64,000 nt of DNA from Elusimicrobiota bacterium (GTDB lineage: Bacteria > Elusimicrobiota > Elusimicrobia > JACQPE01): positions 1-64,000 of the forward strand of contig JACPAN010000017.1 in the NCBI GenBank assembly GCA_016180815.1, written 5' to 3'. The position numbers and the translations under genes are program-made. The notes beneath the pieces are model-generated. The model saw only the letters and a program-made list of their open reading frames with translations, was not told the origin of the DNA and did not search any database. Shown piece by piece: positions 24,216 through 31,908 of this stretch. Positions within the stretch are counted from its first letter, which is position 1. Each line of letters starts with the position of its first letter.

Positions 24216-25865
24216 TTACTCGCCGGCGTCCACGATCACACGGCCGCGCGCGCTGCCCTTGTCCGTTTTAACCTCAAAAATATACACGCCGCTGGCCACG
24301 AGGAAACCGTTTTCATTCTTGCCGTCCCAAGAGGCGCTCTCAAGCTCGCGTATGAGGCTTCCGCTGACATCATAAACCTGAACTTTGATATTGGGGCCGA
24401 CGACGTCGTCGGGAACGGAGAACGTCGCCCTTCGGTTGTCGCCGGCTTTAAAAGGGTTGGGCAAAGCGATAGCCTGAGTGGTTGCGTCAAAACCCGACAG
24501 CGTGCCGTAACGGGCGAGGCGCATGCTTTTTAAAAGATTCAAACGGCCATGCCCGAATTGATCGTCGCGCCCCGCAGACCCCAAATCATCCGCCCCGCCG
24601 GTTAAAATGTTGAACACCTGAGTGGTCGTGGCCGCCGGCAAAACGGAAAAAATCAAGGCCGCGGCGCCGGCGACAATCGGGGCCGAGAACGACGTTCCGT
24701 CGTCGCCGTTATTGCCGAAACCGCCGTTTCTATTAGCGCCTAAAATATCCACTCCGGGAGCGACCAAGTCCACACCGGAACCGATGCTGGAAAAAGACGC
24801 CAGGCTGTCGGTTCTATTGGTGGCGCCCACGCCGAAAACCCCGGCATAGTCCGAAGGGATCACGGCCACGGAATTGCCGCAATTGCCCTTGGCCGCAATC
24901 ACCGGCACATTATTGGCCAAGGCCCGGGCCATGGCATCTTCCTCCAAATTATTGGGCGGGCAAGGAGCGCCGCAAGCATCCGAACCGGGGCAACCTAATG
25001 ACAAATTAATCACCGTGCGGCCCGTGTAGGAACGATGCGCCGTGGATACCCAAACCGCGTAATCGATGGCCGCGATAATATCCGCAGTCGACGCTGAATT
25101 GCAACCGAACGCGGAAAAAATCTTCAGCGGCAAAATTTTGGCTCCCCAAGAAACGCCGGCTGCGCCCGTGCCGTTATCCGTGGCTGCTCCGGCGGCGGAC
25201 GCCACTAAGGTTCCATGGCCCAGGCAATCCGCCGGGTTGTTGTCGTTGTCCGCGAAATCCCAGCCCCAAAAATCATCCGTGCGCCCGTTGCCGTCTTGAT
25301 CCCCGCCGCCGGGCACATCCACGGGATTGATCCAAATTTTTCCCGAGGCCGAGGATAAATCCACATGGTCGATGGCCACGCCGGTATCGATAATCGCGAT
25401 GGTCGTGGGCGTCGAATTGCCGATATCGAATTCCCACCCCGCAAAAGCGCGGATCATGTCCAAATGGTACTGGCTGGCGACCAACGGATCATTGGGCACG
25501 CGGCCCAAAAGATAGCGGTAATCGTTGGTGGCATAAGACAAAACAGCGGGGTCCGAACCAAATAAGGCCGCGGCCTGGGCCGCCGGTCCGGAGACGGCCA
25601 AGCGTTTGCGAGTTTGATCGGCCTGGGCCGCAGCATAGGGCAGAACGGTTTCGACAGGTTTTTGACCCGCCACCCGCCAAAGCTCCAACCCGCTGGTGCC
25701 CACCGATTTGACCTTGACGATGGTCGCTCCCGACCCGGGCACGGTCCATGTGCTTGAGGCCGGAGGGTTCGCCCACTTGATTAAAATTTCATCCGGGACA
25801 TGCGCCGCCGACAATAAAAAAGGCGAAGCCAGCATCCACATAAACGAATGAAAAATTCTTCTCAT
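24216..25865 (-). CDS. Secreted subtilisin-like serine protease with C-terminal FlgD/T9SS-like domain
   Basis: A 549-residue S8 protease with N-terminal signal peptide (FMWMLASPFLLSAAH) and a propeptide-like region to about residue 130. The catalytic triad is D160 in IAIIDTGV, H217 in CLGHGTLVA and S392 in DGTSFSAP, with N328 in AAKGNCG as the oxyanion residue. Two Cys-rich patches (CPGSDACGAPCPP) suggest disulfides. The last 80 or so residues form an Ig-like domain (VYDVSGSLIRELE, NGFLVASGVYIFEV) of the FlgD/Por-secretion type, often used as an outer-membrane sorting or anchoring module. Its start overlaps the rng stop by four bases (ATGA), placing it in the rng operon. The substrate is unknown. 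Confidence 0.93.
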   Translation of the reverse strand: MRRIFHSFMWMLASPFLLSAAHVPDEILIKWANPPASSTWTVPGSGATIVKVKSVGTSGLELWRVAGQKPVETVLPYAAAQADQTRKRLAVSGPAAQAAALFGSDPAVLSYATNDYRYLLGRVPNDPLVASQYHLDMIRAFAGWEFDIGNSTPTTIAIIDTGVAIDHVDLSSASGKIWINPVDVPGGGDQDGNGRTDDFWGWDFADNDNNPADCLGHGTLVASAAGAATDNGTGAAGVSWGAKILPLKIFSAFGCNSASTADIIAAIDYAVWVSTAHRSYTGRTVINLSLGCPGSDACGAPCPPNNLEEDAMARALANNVPVIAAKGNCGNSVAVIPSDYAGVFGVGATNRTDSLASFSSIGSGVDLVAPGVDILGANRNGGFGNNGDDGTSFSAPIVAGAAALIFSVLPAATTTQVFNILTGGADDLGSAGRDDQFGHGRLNLLKSMRLARYGTLSGFDATTQAIALPNPFKAGDNRRATFSVPDDVVGPNIKVQVYDVSGSLIRELESASWDGKNENGFLVASGVYIFEVKTDKGSARGRVIVDAGE

Positions 25866-27342: not shown

Positions 27343-28644
27343 CTATAAATAACGCAAACGGCCGGATCCAAGCTCAAGGGCCAAGGCCGTGCGGCTGATT
27401 TTTAATTCCGTTTGGATCGTTCTAGGTTCAAGACCCAGAGCGATCTCTAAAATCTTTTCCGGCTTAAGATTCTTCTTGGGGCCGAAACGCAGGGAAAGCT
27501 TGACGCCCAACGAGGAATTCGGGCCGCCGGATTTGAGGCTAACCCCGCCAACGACGTCGGCCGCATTGATCAAATCCACTTTTTTCCCCGGTTTTTCTTT
27601 GCGCACCACCACCGGCTCGGCCCCGGCTGAAGACAGCCGCTGAAACCAAACCAGCAGGCGTTCCCAATCCAACGACGATTGGCCAGCCTCTTCAACCCAA
27701 TATTCCGCCCAATTAGCGCTTTCCTCGAGAGAAGGAAAATGCGCGGGGATGCGCTGAACCTTTCCCAGACCGTAGCCCGGAGGCAGCGCGGCTCCCAAAT
27801 TCTTCGCCATCTCATCCATCGTCAGGGGTTCCTCCAAGAGCATGTCGAAAAATTCCGTTTGAGATTCCCACCCAACGCTGACCGCGGGGCCGAAACTCAT
27901 TTTGGCCCTTGGTTTTTTCCCCTCGCCCAAGGCCACGGGCAAGCCGGCTAAAAAAACCGCGCTTTTCAACAACTGAATCTGCTCCAAATGGGACACGAAC
28001 CGCGACCAGCCCGCGCGGCTGCATTGCGCGCGATAAGCGGTCGGCCGCGCGAATCGAGGGCGAACGGACGCCCGGTGCGCCCGGTATTGAGGAGATTCCG
28101 CGCTTCGGTAAGCCAGCAACAGCGGCATTTTCCTCTCAACGGCGGGTGAATCAACGGCGCCTTGTTTGAACATCGCCACAATGCGCTTAACCGACTCCTC
28201 TTCCAAGGGACCGGGGGGGACGAGGACGAGAGGAAGACCACGCTCGTGGGCCGCGCGACCGGCCGCTTCTTGAAGCGCCGTGGACCCCTCCGGAGCGGCC
28301 ACGATAAAACCGTCGAACGCCTCCAGCGGCTGTTTGTGCTCCAAGGAAAACCACGGATTTGGCTCTCCCCATTGAGCCAACTGTTCCCGATAATCCGCCT
28401 CGGGGATGGTAAACCGGTTGACTAAAATTCCGGCTTGAGCTAAGCGCGCATAAAGAACCGCCAGGCGCTCGTCCTGCATGGCGCGCTCATAGGAGGCGCA
28501 CCAGATTAACGCCGCGCGTCCGCCCGGGCCCTGAGGCCATGGTTTAGCGGCGATGGAACCGATCTCGCAGCCCGCATAGCGCGACGGCCGCATCGAACAC
28601 GCCGCGGCTTTTTCAAGAATCCCCTCTCGGTGCTGGGTGATCAT
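27343..28644 (-). CDS. TIGR03960/DUF2344-like protein lacking the radical-SAM core
   Basis: From ATG 28644 (GAAGGG upstream) the product has 433 residues. Residues 1 to about 165 resemble the N-terminal B12-binding-like part of the TIGR03960 radical-SAM family (SMRPSRYAGCEIGSI, PWFSLEHKQPLEAFDGFIV). From about 203 on is a DUF2344/TIGR03936 domain (SRAGWSRFVSHLEQIQLLKS, MSFGPAVSVGWESQTE). The radical-SAM core normally between them, with its CxxxCxxC cluster motif, is absent: the joining 35-40 residues hold no such motif. It sits between rodA and rng, the place where the full-length system is usually found. The function is unknown; one idea is an RNA-related partner of RNase G. Confidence 0.72.
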   Translation of the reverse strand: MITQHREGILEKAAACSMRPSRYAGCEIGSIAAKPWPQGPGGRAALIWCASYERAMQDERLAVLYARLAQAGILVNRFTIPEADYREQLAQWGEPNPWFSLEHKQPLEAFDGFIVAAPEGSTALQEAAGRAAHERGLPLVLVPPGPLEEESVKRIVAMFKQGAVDSPAVERKMPLLLAYRSAESPQYRAHRASVRPRFARPTAYRAQCSRAGWSRFVSHLEQIQLLKSAVFLAGLPVALGEGKKPRAKMSFGPAVSVGWESQTEFFDMLLEEPLTMDEMAKNLGAALPPGYGLGKVQRIPAHFPSLEESANWAEYWVEEAGQSSLDWERLLVWFQRLSSAGAEPVVVRKEKPGKKVDLINAADVVGGVSLKSGGPNSSLGVKLSLRFGPKKNLKPEKILEIALGLEPRTIQTELKISRTALALELGSGRLRYL

Positions 28645-28654
28645 AAAAGTCCCT

Positions 28655-30073
28655 TCATCGCTGGCCTCGATAAACGAAAAACCCGCGGGACACGGCCAGC
28701 AGCAATCCCATTTCCAGGGCATTGACCACCAAACGTGAACCGCCGTAAGAAAGAAACGGCAAACCGATGCCTAAAATAGGAAACAGCCCCGACACATAGG
28801 CGATATTGATGCTCACCTCGCCGAACCAGATACTTAAAAGCCCAAGGGCCACCAGCTTCCCCCATTCCTCGCGCGCCAATTCCGTAAAACGGGTCAACCG
28901 CCAAAATAGAAGGCCGAACAACACCAAGGCTCCGGTGGTGCCGATAAAACCCATGGTTTCCCCCAATGAAGCGAAGGCAAAATCAGTGTGGCGCTCCGGC
29001 AAAAAACCGAGCGAGGCCTGAGAGCCCGACAGCAGCCCTTTGCCCAGGAATCCGCCCGAACCCAATGCGATTTTTGACTGGGTAATGTTGTAGCCGGAGC
29101 CCAAAGGATCGGCGCGCGGGAACAAAAAACTGATCAAACGGTTCTTCTGGTAGCCTTTGAGCGTTTTCCAGCCGCTGTAACCGGCGCCGGCCGAAGCCCC
29201 CAACGCCAAGGCCACAACAAACGGCCAAACCCAGGAAGCCCTGGGGGACACGACGAATAGTCCCTGCAACAATTTAAAAACGGCGATGGCTGCCGCCAAC
29301 ATGGCCAGCGCCCAGATCAGCCATTTGCCGGCCGTGGCCCCCGGCCCGAAGCCCAAACCCATCAAGAATGAAGACACTTGGCCAAGCTCGCCGATGGAAA
29401 GTCCGGCCGTGATATGGCCCAACAAAAAAACAAAGGCGCCGAACCCGGACAAACCCAATAACGCGATCCAGCCCCCGGCCAATAGATCCAAACTCCAGGC
29501 GTACGCCGCCAAAATAAAAACAAAACTCAACGCGCTGGAAACATCGTTTTGAGCGAGCACCAAAATCATGGGCAGCGCGCAGGCGGCGACGAGCTTAAGC
29601 CGGTCCGCAATGGTGATCAGCGGATCCCGTTCGCGAAAACGAACCGCCAGATAAGACGCGTAGAGAATGGTCGTAAATTTGGCCAATTCGCTGGGTTGAA
29701 ATTGAACAGGACCCATCACGAACCAGGATTTGGACCCATGAATAACGCGTCCGAACAACAGCACCGTCGAAAGCAGCGCCAGGCTCGCGACATACAACAC
29801 CGGGCAAGCCTCGGCAATCAGGGCCGTGGGCAGGATGATCATGATCAAACCAACGGATAATCCGATGGTCAAGGCGGCCAGGTGGCGGGCCCAAAATAGA
29901 TCAAAATTAGGAGAACCCCGCAACGCAGCATAAACAACCAGGGTGCCCAGGCCAACCAAGAGAAGCGCCGCAGCCAACAGCATGGTGTCGAGGCCGAAGA
30001 GGCGATAAAACAACGGCGCCCGGGCCTCATCAGTGCGTCCGACTAAAATAGGGCTGATAAATTCTCTTCCCAT
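28655..30073 (-). CDS. rodA: SEDS peptidoglycan glycosyltransferase RodA
   Basis: A 472-residue polytopic membrane protein of the SEDS family that polymerises lipid II during lateral wall growth with PBP2. Diagnostic motifs are GSKSWFVMGPVQFQPSELAK, AQNDVSSALSF (its Asp corresponds to the catalytic Asp), FLPERHTDFAFASLGE and LPFLSYGGS. It is roughly 90 residues longer than typical RodA, because the middle helical region (about 215-300) is expanded. It starts 2 bases after the mrdA stop. Confidence 0.94.
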   Translation of the reverse strand: MGREFISPILVGRTDEARAPLFYRLFGLDTMLLAAALLLVGLGTLVVYAALRGSPNFDLFWARHLAALTIGLSVGLIMIILPTALIAEACPVLYVASLALLSTVLLFGRVIHGSKSWFVMGPVQFQPSELAKFTTILYASYLAVRFRERDPLITIADRLKLVAACALPMILVLAQNDVSSALSFVFILAAYAWSLDLLAGGWIALLGLSGFGAFVFLLGHITAGLSIGELGQVSSFLMGLGFGPGATAGKWLIWALAMLAAAIAVFKLLQGLFVVSPRASWVWPFVVALALGASAGAGYSGWKTLKGYQKNRLISFLFPRADPLGSGYNITQSKIALGSGGFLGKGLLSGSQASLGFLPERHTDFAFASLGETMGFIGTTGALVLFGLLFWRLTRFTELAREEWGKLVALGLLSIWFGEVSINIAYVSGLFPILGIGLPFLSYGGSRLVVNALEMGLLLAVSRGFFVYRGQR

Positions 30074-30075
30074 GG

Positions 30076-31908
30076 CTATAAAGGCGCGGAGGCTCCGGTC
30101 TCCGTTTTTGCGAAATCAGGCTCAATGCGAATGAATTCTTCAAGCACCCGGCGGGCCACCGGAACGGCCGCGGTCGAGCCTTGCCCCCCGTGTTCGATGA
30201 TTACGCCCAAGGCTAAGCGCGGGGTCCCCTGATCGTCTTTTAAATAACAGGCGAATAGGGCATGATCTTTCCCCAACGGGTTCTGCGATGTTCCGGTTTT
30301 GCCGAAAATGGCCCTGTTGGGGATATTAGCTCCACGCCCGGTCCCGCCGTCGACCACGGCTCGAAGTCCGGCTTCAACTAATTCCCAAGTCTTGGCGGAT
30401 AAGCCGCCGACTTGAATCGGGGTTTTCTGCGCGGTCAAACCCAAGGCGCCGCTGGAGACATCGCCCACGACTTCGACGATATAGGGCTGCGGCAGGCGCC
30501 CGCGCGTCGCCACCAATGAAAACAAAGCCGCCAACTGCAAGGGCGTGACCAACACCTCGCCCTGGCCGATGGACAGATTAAGAGTGTCCCCTGGATACCA
30601 AGACGATCGCTTTTTCTCCTCTTTCCATGCGGGCGTAGGGATAAACCCCTGCTTGGACCATTCCGGAAATTCGCGCACGAACATGCTCCGTCCCAAAGAA
30701 AATTTCATCGCCCAGGCACTGATGGATTCGCCGCCGGCAAAGAGGCCGGCGTTATAAAAATAAACGTCGCAGGAATGTTTCAATCCTTCGACTAAATCGC
30801 AAGATCCGTGCCCCTCTTCTTTCCAACAACGGAAAACCCGCCCGGGTAAAGCAAATTTACCCGTGCAATTGTACCGGCGTCCGGGATCGATGCCTTTTTC
30901 GAGAGCCGCGACGGACGTCACCACCTTGAACGTGCTGCCCGCAGGATAAAGCCCGGTCAATGCTCTGGGGAATTCGGCCCGGCCGGCTTCATCTTCGCCG
31001 GAATCAAGCCGGATGTAAGCGTTGGGATCGAATCCGGGCGTGGACACCAACACCAAAACACGCCCGGTCAACGGGTCCAACCCAACGACGGATCCCGCGC
31101 CCGAAGGCGAATCGCGCAAGGCCGCATAAGCCGTCATGAGCAAACGATGATCCACGGTTAAGGCCATGTCCTGGCCGGGATAAGCGTCCTCGATCAACCG
31201 AAGCCCCCCGCTTCCGGAATGGCCTTCGCGCAGGGTGTCTACCCCTCGATTGATGGGGCGACCGCGCACATCCACCTCGATGAGAACGGCCCCGTCCGTG
31301 CCCTTCAAATATTCTTCAAAATTTTTTTCAAGACCGTAGCCGCCCAACCACGAATCAAAACGGTAGCCCAGGTCTTTGAGCCGCTCGTATTGAGCGCGTG
31401 ATTTAATGCGCGTCAAATAGCCCAGCACATGAGAGAACGCTTCCCCCAACGGGTAATACCGGAGGGATTCCGAAGCCAGAAAAAATTCCGGGAACGCCTC
31501 TTGACGCTCCATGAACCGAAACGCGGCCTCCGGCGCGATTTGCCTGGCCACGAGCTGAGTGCGTCCGCCGGAACGCGCCAGAGCGATCTCCTTGTCCAAA
31601 TCCTGTTTCTTAAGGTTGAGGATGGCGCTGACCGCTTCTACGCGCTTGTCGGGTTCCTCCAGCAGCAAACGCGGATTAAAATATAAATTGAACACCCCGA
31701 CATTGGACGCCAGAGGATACCCCGTGCGATCGAGGATCGCGCCGCGCGGCGCCTGGCGGTAAAAAATTTGAAAACGGTTGCGCTCGGCGAGGATGCTGTA
31801 TTTCTCCCCGGAAACGATTTGAAGCAAAAACAGCCTCAAGGCAAAAACGCCCACAAAAATCAAAATGAGAAATCTCATCCACGCAACTTTTTCGGCCAAG
31901 GGGTTCAT
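30076..31908 (-). CDS. mrdA: Penicillin-binding protein 2 (peptidoglycan transpeptidase)
   Basis: The 610-residue class B PBP has one N-terminal membrane helix (about 9-31) and a dimerisation domain (RQAPRGAILDRTG). The transpeptidase domain carries active S325-T-F-K328, S379-C-D381 as the SxN box and KTGT near residue 547. It crosslinks peptidoglycan for rod elongation, partnered by RodA. It overlaps mreD by four bases (ATGA) and is followed by rodA after two bases. Confidence 0.96.
   Translation of the reverse strand: MNPLAEKVAWMRFLILIFVGVFALRLFLLQIVSGEKYSILAERNRFQIFYRQAPRGAILDRTGYPLASNVGVFNLYFNPRLLLEEPDKRVEAVSAILNLKKQDLDKEIALARSGGRTQLVARQIAPEAAFRFMERQEAFPEFFLASESLRYYPLGEAFSHVLGYLTRIKSRAQYERLKDLGYRFDSWLGGYGLEKNFEEYLKGTDGAVLIEVDVRGRPINRGVDTLREGHSGSGGLRLIEDAYPGQDMALTVDHRLLMTAYAALRDSPSGAGSVVGLDPLTGRVLVLVSTPGFDPNAYIRLDSGEDEAGRAEFPRALTGLYPAGSTFKVVTSVAALEKGIDPGRRYNCTGKFALPGRVFRCWKEEGHGSCDLVEGLKHSCDVYFYNAGLFAGGESISAWAMKFSLGRSMFVREFPEWSKQGFIPTPAWKEEKKRSSWYPGDTLNLSIGQGEVLVTPLQLAALFSLVATRGRLPQPYIVEVVGDVSSGALGLTAQKTPIQVGGLSAKTWELVEAGLRAVVDGGTGRGANIPNRAIFGKTGTSQNPLGKDHALFACYLKDDQGTPRLALGVIIEHGGQGSTAAVPVARRVLEEFIRIEPDFAKTETGASAPL

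Follow-up and report, generated by a model that had tools for sequence, protein, structure and literature searches.

The window, i.e. the whole 64,000-nucleotide stretch of DNA that was analysed, carries between rodA and rng a short relic of the TIGR03960-TIGR03936 fusion proteins, in which the N-terminal segment and the DUF2344 domain are retained and the radical-SAM core is lost. We read this protein as a fusion descendant whose DUF2344 domain was kept, after the loss of the core, as a non-catalytic RNA-binding module encoded before RNase G; taken as a whole, this interpretation appears to us to have an even chance of being correct.

The 433-aa open reading frame (28644..27343, minus strand) starts 10 bp past the stop of rodA and ends 38 bp ahead of the start of rng, and the same arrangement, with rodA upstream and rng downstream, was present in 18/18 fetched loci; as originally noted, the gene lies beside rng. 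The TIGR03936 match of the window protein (Table 1) exceeds its cut-off of 71.9 bits, and DUF2344 itself was matched at residues 204-395 (88.6 bits, cut-off 23.8). The open reading frame that we take to be pbp2/mrdA is a 27% match to a Collinsella gene annotated as mrdA. Directly after rng lies a gene (24216-25865), presumably encoding an S8-like protease judging from its sequence, which is also present in genome G003 (L055). A single DUF2344 was found in the host genome, which comprises 2.85 Mb in 39 contigs and is 99.5% complete.

Table 1 Features of the window gene and its neighbourhood (window coordinates).
Feature	Position	Strand	Basis
Short TIGR03960-TIGR03936 relic: N-domain, linker and DUF2344, 433 aa	27343..28644	-	ORF, translation
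Segment related to the TIGR03960 N-terminus, aa 6-111 (reaching the first third of Radical_SAM_N2)	28312..28629	-	Local HMM, Pfam PF19864
Predicted four-stranded alpha/beta domain, aa 43-162	28159..28518	-	AlphaFold2 secondary structure
Variable linker, aa 163-200, where the radical-SAM core is missing	28045..28158	-	Low pLDDT at 164-170; alignment with intact relatives
TIGR03936/DUF2344 domain, TruA-like pseudouridine-synthase fold (predicted), aa 204-421	27382..28035	-	109.9 bits; Z 12.8 to TruA 2nre_A
GKKP replacing the G[FY]xP motif, aa 242-245	27910..27921	-	Motif comparison with radical-SAM-associated DUF2344
rng, RNase G, 480 aa	25862..27304	-	TIGR00757, 440.9 bits
rodA	28655..30073	-	FTSW_RODA_SPOVE, 241.2 bits
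pbp2/mrdA (presumed)	30076..31908	-	ORF; homologue upstream of rodA in relatives

Within the 433 residues of the window protein there is no CxxxCxxC motif, and neither Pfam Radical_SAM (PF04055) nor TIGR03960 produced a match at E ≤ 1. Alignment with full-length proteins located the missing part between about residue 111 and about residue 201, where the intact fusion L100 has approximately 500 residues, including CxxxCxxC. A search of the whole genome with TIGR03960 gave no matches at E ≤ 0.01, i.e. a radical-SAM partner carrying the missing segment elsewhere was not found at this threshold. These results confirm the loss of the core that had been proposed from the sequence. The same short form is common to all four genomes of family f1 (the window genome and L069-L071, the latter three being Elusimicrobia MAGs from groundwater), which belong to four genera and form one clade with full support in our trees; because all of them share it, the short form is not an assembly error, and a deletion introduced by assembly is ruled out. 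Compared with the intact fusions of f3 and other Elusimicrobiota (L100, L096), the window protein has the same N-terminal segment and the same DUF2344, and the rodA-X-rng slot is that of the f3 fusions, but the ~500 residues with CxxxCxxC and PF04055 are missing and GKKP stands in place of G[FY]xP.

Judged by sequence, the N-terminal ~110 residues are akin to the TIGR03960 N-terminus. The kinship is weak in Pfam (Radical_SAM_N2, PF19864; E = 0.13 over positions 4-53 of a 151-position profile) and clear with a local HMM that we derived from 26 intact relatives (E = 1.1 × 10−6, positions 11-112 of 119). The original prediction described this part as 'B12-like'; the kinship to the TIGR03960 N-terminus stands, whereas the B12 label is loose, given that the B12-binding family (PF02310) had no match in the window protein at E ≤ 1. 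The intact relative L100 scored 16.7 bits against this family, under the cut-off of 32.1. The second half of the alpha/beta domain lies in a segment without detectable TIGR03960 homology, and a fold search with the N-domain returned just common Rossmann-like matches, none of them decisive (best E = 7 × 10−5, lumazine synthase).

Among the 81 loci surveyed (80 collected loci and the window), 28 encode an intact fusion with the cluster motif, 3 have part of the core and are cut by contig ends, one (L088, f12) is full-length and motif-less, 4 have the short form (N-domain and DUF2344) and 44 have DUF2344 alone; the remaining locus, L122, is cut too early for classing. The slot between rodA and rng is occupied in relatives by an intact fusion, a cysteine-less fusion, an N-domain joined to DUF2344, DUF2344 alone, or none of these. 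Outside the 81 loci, the genome search yielded another motif-less example, L051 of f11; its reading frame changes between the degenerate core and DUF2344 (L051:1484-1747), close to seven consecutive G, and this change could be either genuine or due to an error in sequencing. In both L088 and L051, Radical_SAM_N2 was found and PF04055 was not matched at E ≤ 1. The cysteine-less relatives (L088 and L052 in f12, L051 in f11) are like the window gene in slot and in the absence of the cluster motif and of PF04055 (E ≤ 1), but, unlike the window protein, still contain a degenerate core. The stand-alone DUF2344 genes of the same class (f2, f4, f9, f10, f13, f14) share with the window gene the position before rng and the absence of a TIGR03960-family gene, but do not encode the N-domain. 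L087 was considered as a further dead fusion, but the frame upstream of its DUF2344 has no match to any family and extends into the rodA region; the locus was therefore classed as DUF2344 alone.

In a census of 284 genomes of the phylum that were at least 80% complete (TIGR03960 counted at E ≤ 1 × 10−20), DUF2344 was found in 226 and TIGR03960 in 87. Among the 199 genomes from the class of the window genome, 144 have DUF2344 and 7 have TIGR03960 (one of these being the f11 relic); DUF2344 without intact TIGR03960 thus occurs in 138 of the 144 DUF2344-bearing genomes. By contrast, the 85 genomes from other classes include 82 with DUF2344 and 80 with TIGR03960, the exceptions being G237, G276 and G282, which have DUF2344 without TIGR03960, and G286, which shows the reverse. 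Given this contrast (7/199 vs 80/85 genomes with TIGR03960), loss of the core is mainly a trait of the window genome's class. The idea that the flanking domains have a job without radical chemistry is supported for DUF2344 by the 138 genomes; for the N-domain, a separate job is weaker because most lineages dropped it.

In a tree of RodA and RNase G comprising 48 rows, the motif-less f12 groups with the DUF2344-only f4 and the DUF2344-less f6 (support 99-100), the short f1 groups with a large DUF2344-only clade (support 100), and DUF2344 itself is lost in three groups. Placing all core-less rows in one clade was rejected (p-AU = 7 × 10−48 with the DUF2344-less rows and 0.0045 without them, the core-less group having been picked after a first tree had been seen). 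Thus, a single deletion is rejected, and the core was removed at least twice. The f12 and f11 relatives suggest that inactivation, in one or more events, preceded removal of the core; the fork joining the lost groups has a support of 88, f11 has no placement on the tree, and several basal forks in the tree of RNase G alone are not settled.

The presence of a radical-SAM partner is mirrored at a site of DUF2344, corresponding to residues 242-245 of the window protein. The motif G[FY]xP was found there in 34/34 DUF2344 sequences with such a partner (28 intact fusions, 3 contig-cut loci with core and 3 from the split f28) and in 0/57 sequences without one (2 motif-less, 4 short and 51 DUF2344-only; L122 was excluded because its sequence is cut), as well as in 5/5 Bacillota and Actinomycetota records with both genes and CxxxCxxC. 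The motif is kept in f28, where the two genes are split, and lost in its sister f27, which has no TIGR03960. Because the rows are related, these counts represent a few events, not 91 independent ones, and because motif and partner are clustered on the tree, the complete separation may come down to 2-3 independent losses. We infer that this loop was the part of DUF2344 used by the radical-SAM enzyme and that it degenerated once the enzyme was lost. At eleven other positions (R210, L220, F251, G252, P253, G258, S261, E264, P300, K394 and R418), conservation is at least 90% both with and without a radical-SAM partner.

The AlphaFold2 model of the window protein (pLDDT 89.3, pTM 0.89) consists of the alpha/beta N-domain (residues 43-162), the linker and DUF2344. 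Residues 199-425 of the model superimpose on TruA 2nre_A with an rmsd of 3.0 over 195 residues (Z 12.8, 12% identity), and TruA relatives are also among the structural matches of the DUF2344 model. DUF2344 is thus predicted to have a TruA-like pseudouridine-synthase fold, in agreement with its grouping with pseudouridine-synthase families in a Pfam clan, as described in PMC7955657. A sequence search of the PDB with DUF2344 gave nothing at E ≤ 0.1. The TruA family of pseudouridine synthases has a catalytic Asp, which was invariant in 12 aligned TruA sequences; among 39 aligned DUF2344 sequences there was no invariant Asp, so that the two are alike in predicted fold but differ in this residue. 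In a profile alignment of the two families, which is weak (probability 26%), the TruA Asp falls on Pro. With this predicted dead pseudouridine-synthase fold, DUF2344 most likely binds RNA. As to TruA itself, PF01416 was found in 18/284 Elusimicrobiota genomes vs 12/14 control genomes, and was not found in the window genome (G000).

Among the 44 DUF2344-only loci, rng is the next gene in 40/40 with enough sequence, and the other 4 stop at a contig end. The distance is within 250 bp in 34 loci and 414-485 bp in 6, the latter encoding an RNase G with an N-terminal extension. The next gene is also rng in 4/4 short forms and in L088. In the intact fusions, rng lies within 250 bp in 11/28 and ~1.2 kb off in 10/28, the contig ends in 3/28, and 4/28 have no rng in the 2.3-4.0 kb downstream. 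In the split f28, intact TIGR03960 follows pbp2-rodA (L168, L169) and DUF2344 lies ahead of rng at another, distant place (L165-L167); in f27 (L170), DUF2344 alone precedes rng. The earlier suggestion of a link, 'perhaps with RNase G', thus finds its support in gene position, i.e. in rng being next in all testable core-less loci and in DUF2344 going with rng in f28, from which a partnership of DUF2344 with RNase G may be proposed. However, f6, f7 and f8 keep rng without DUF2344, so that RNase G is not dependent on DUF2344 and the tie is supported yet not proven; adjacency to rng can also be inherited without function.

An N-terminal extension of RNase G, Arg/Gly-rich in most cases, was observed in f8 (L174-L176, L180-L182, L184) and likewise in L073, L078, L097, L099, L103 and L113 (f13 and near relatives). 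DUF2344 is lost in f8, and the sister group of f8 has both DUF2344 and the extension. This tail might stand in for DUF2344 as an RNA-binding part.

Taken together, in the reading that we prefer, the ancestor of the window gene would be an intact fusion of N-domain, radical-SAM core and DUF2344 (TIGR03960-TIGR03936). In the window genome's class, the radical-SAM part would have been inactivated and the core removed at least twice, and DUF2344, which resembles a pseudouridine synthase in fold but lacks its catalytic Asp, would have been retained, directly ahead of rng, as a module that binds RNA. The retention of DUF2344 beside rng after core loss suggests that this tail has a second job that needs no radical chemistry: it may once have worked for both the radical-SAM enzyme and RNase G, and would now work for RNase G or another RNA-processing partner. 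Considering the gene position, it may recruit RNA to RNase G or present RNA to it. A more specific version, which we hold tentatively and rate below an even chance, would make the dead-fold DUF2344 a shared RNA-presenting subunit, with the G[FY]xP loop, located where the old pseudouridine-synthase active site was, presenting RNA to TIGR03960 and another surface supplying RNA to RNase G. Elusimicrobia would then have lost the radical-SAM arm and kept the RNase G arm, and natural evolution would therefore separate the two functions.

The main rival is that DUF2344 has a role in ribosome or rRNA maturation that is independent of radical-SAM chemistry, the adjacency to rng being mere operon inheritance. 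It is the main rival because in other phyla the TIGR03960/DUF2344 pair is also found beside ribosomal genes: in Collinsella it adjoins rplU-rpmA-obgE and in Ruminococcus rplS and ylqF, in neither case rng. The trypanosome mt-SSU assembly factors among the structural matches, which have the same fold, and the genomes with rng yet without DUF2344 point in the same direction. In Nonomuraea, and likewise in Acetoanaerobium (rng by a 25% match), the pair is beside rng. However, DUF2344 of f28 and f27 sits with rng though parted from rodA and TIGR03960, and adjacency to rng is maintained in all testable core-less loci; we consider a ribosomal role rather unlikely. The Acetoanaerobium (L186, 2.6 Mb) and Nonomuraea (L187, 11.9 Mb) records are labelled as plasmids and look like mislabelled chromosomes.

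Other explanations appear far less probable. It is improbable that TIGR03960 has been replaced by a different, unrelated radical-SAM enzyme from the window genome, working with the window DUF2344: many relatives have other radical-SAM proteins, but in the window genome not even the radical-SAM part of TIGR03960 finds a match (E ≤ 0.01), and G[FY]xP, which persists in f28 with TIGR03960 acting in trans, is lost in the window protein. The stepwise loss on the tree and the complete disappearance of DUF2344 from three groups could suggest that the stand-alone and short forms are decaying remnants heading for loss under little selection. Their frames, however, are open, with 53-63% DUF2344 identity across four genera; R205, G258, S261, E264, D267 and P300 are at 100% (rounded) in the 57 core-less sequences, and retention in the 138 class genomes without intact TIGR03960 likewise makes decay very improbable. 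Finally, the predicted TruA-like fold and the scarcity of PF01416 in the phylum would fit DUF2344 being a replacement TruA that modifies tRNA. We reject this and give it hardly any credence: DUF2344 has no invariant Asp, the TruA Asp aligns (weakly) with Pro, and PF01416 occurs in only 2/58 genomes without DUF2344, which indicates that DUF2344 and TruA do not replace each other.

TIGR03960/TIGR03936 proteins are present in several phyla, and the titles and abstract openings returned by a literature search described no function for DUF2344, TIGR03936 or TIGR03960. Lineages that have DUF2344 and no radical-SAM part separate two roles of this domain and direct attention to RNase G and RNA. In addition, G[FY]xP provides a residue-level marker that predicts if a given DUF2344 protein has a radical-SAM enzyme as its partner. 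Both the link to RNase G and RNA and the marker are testable in culturable bacteria.
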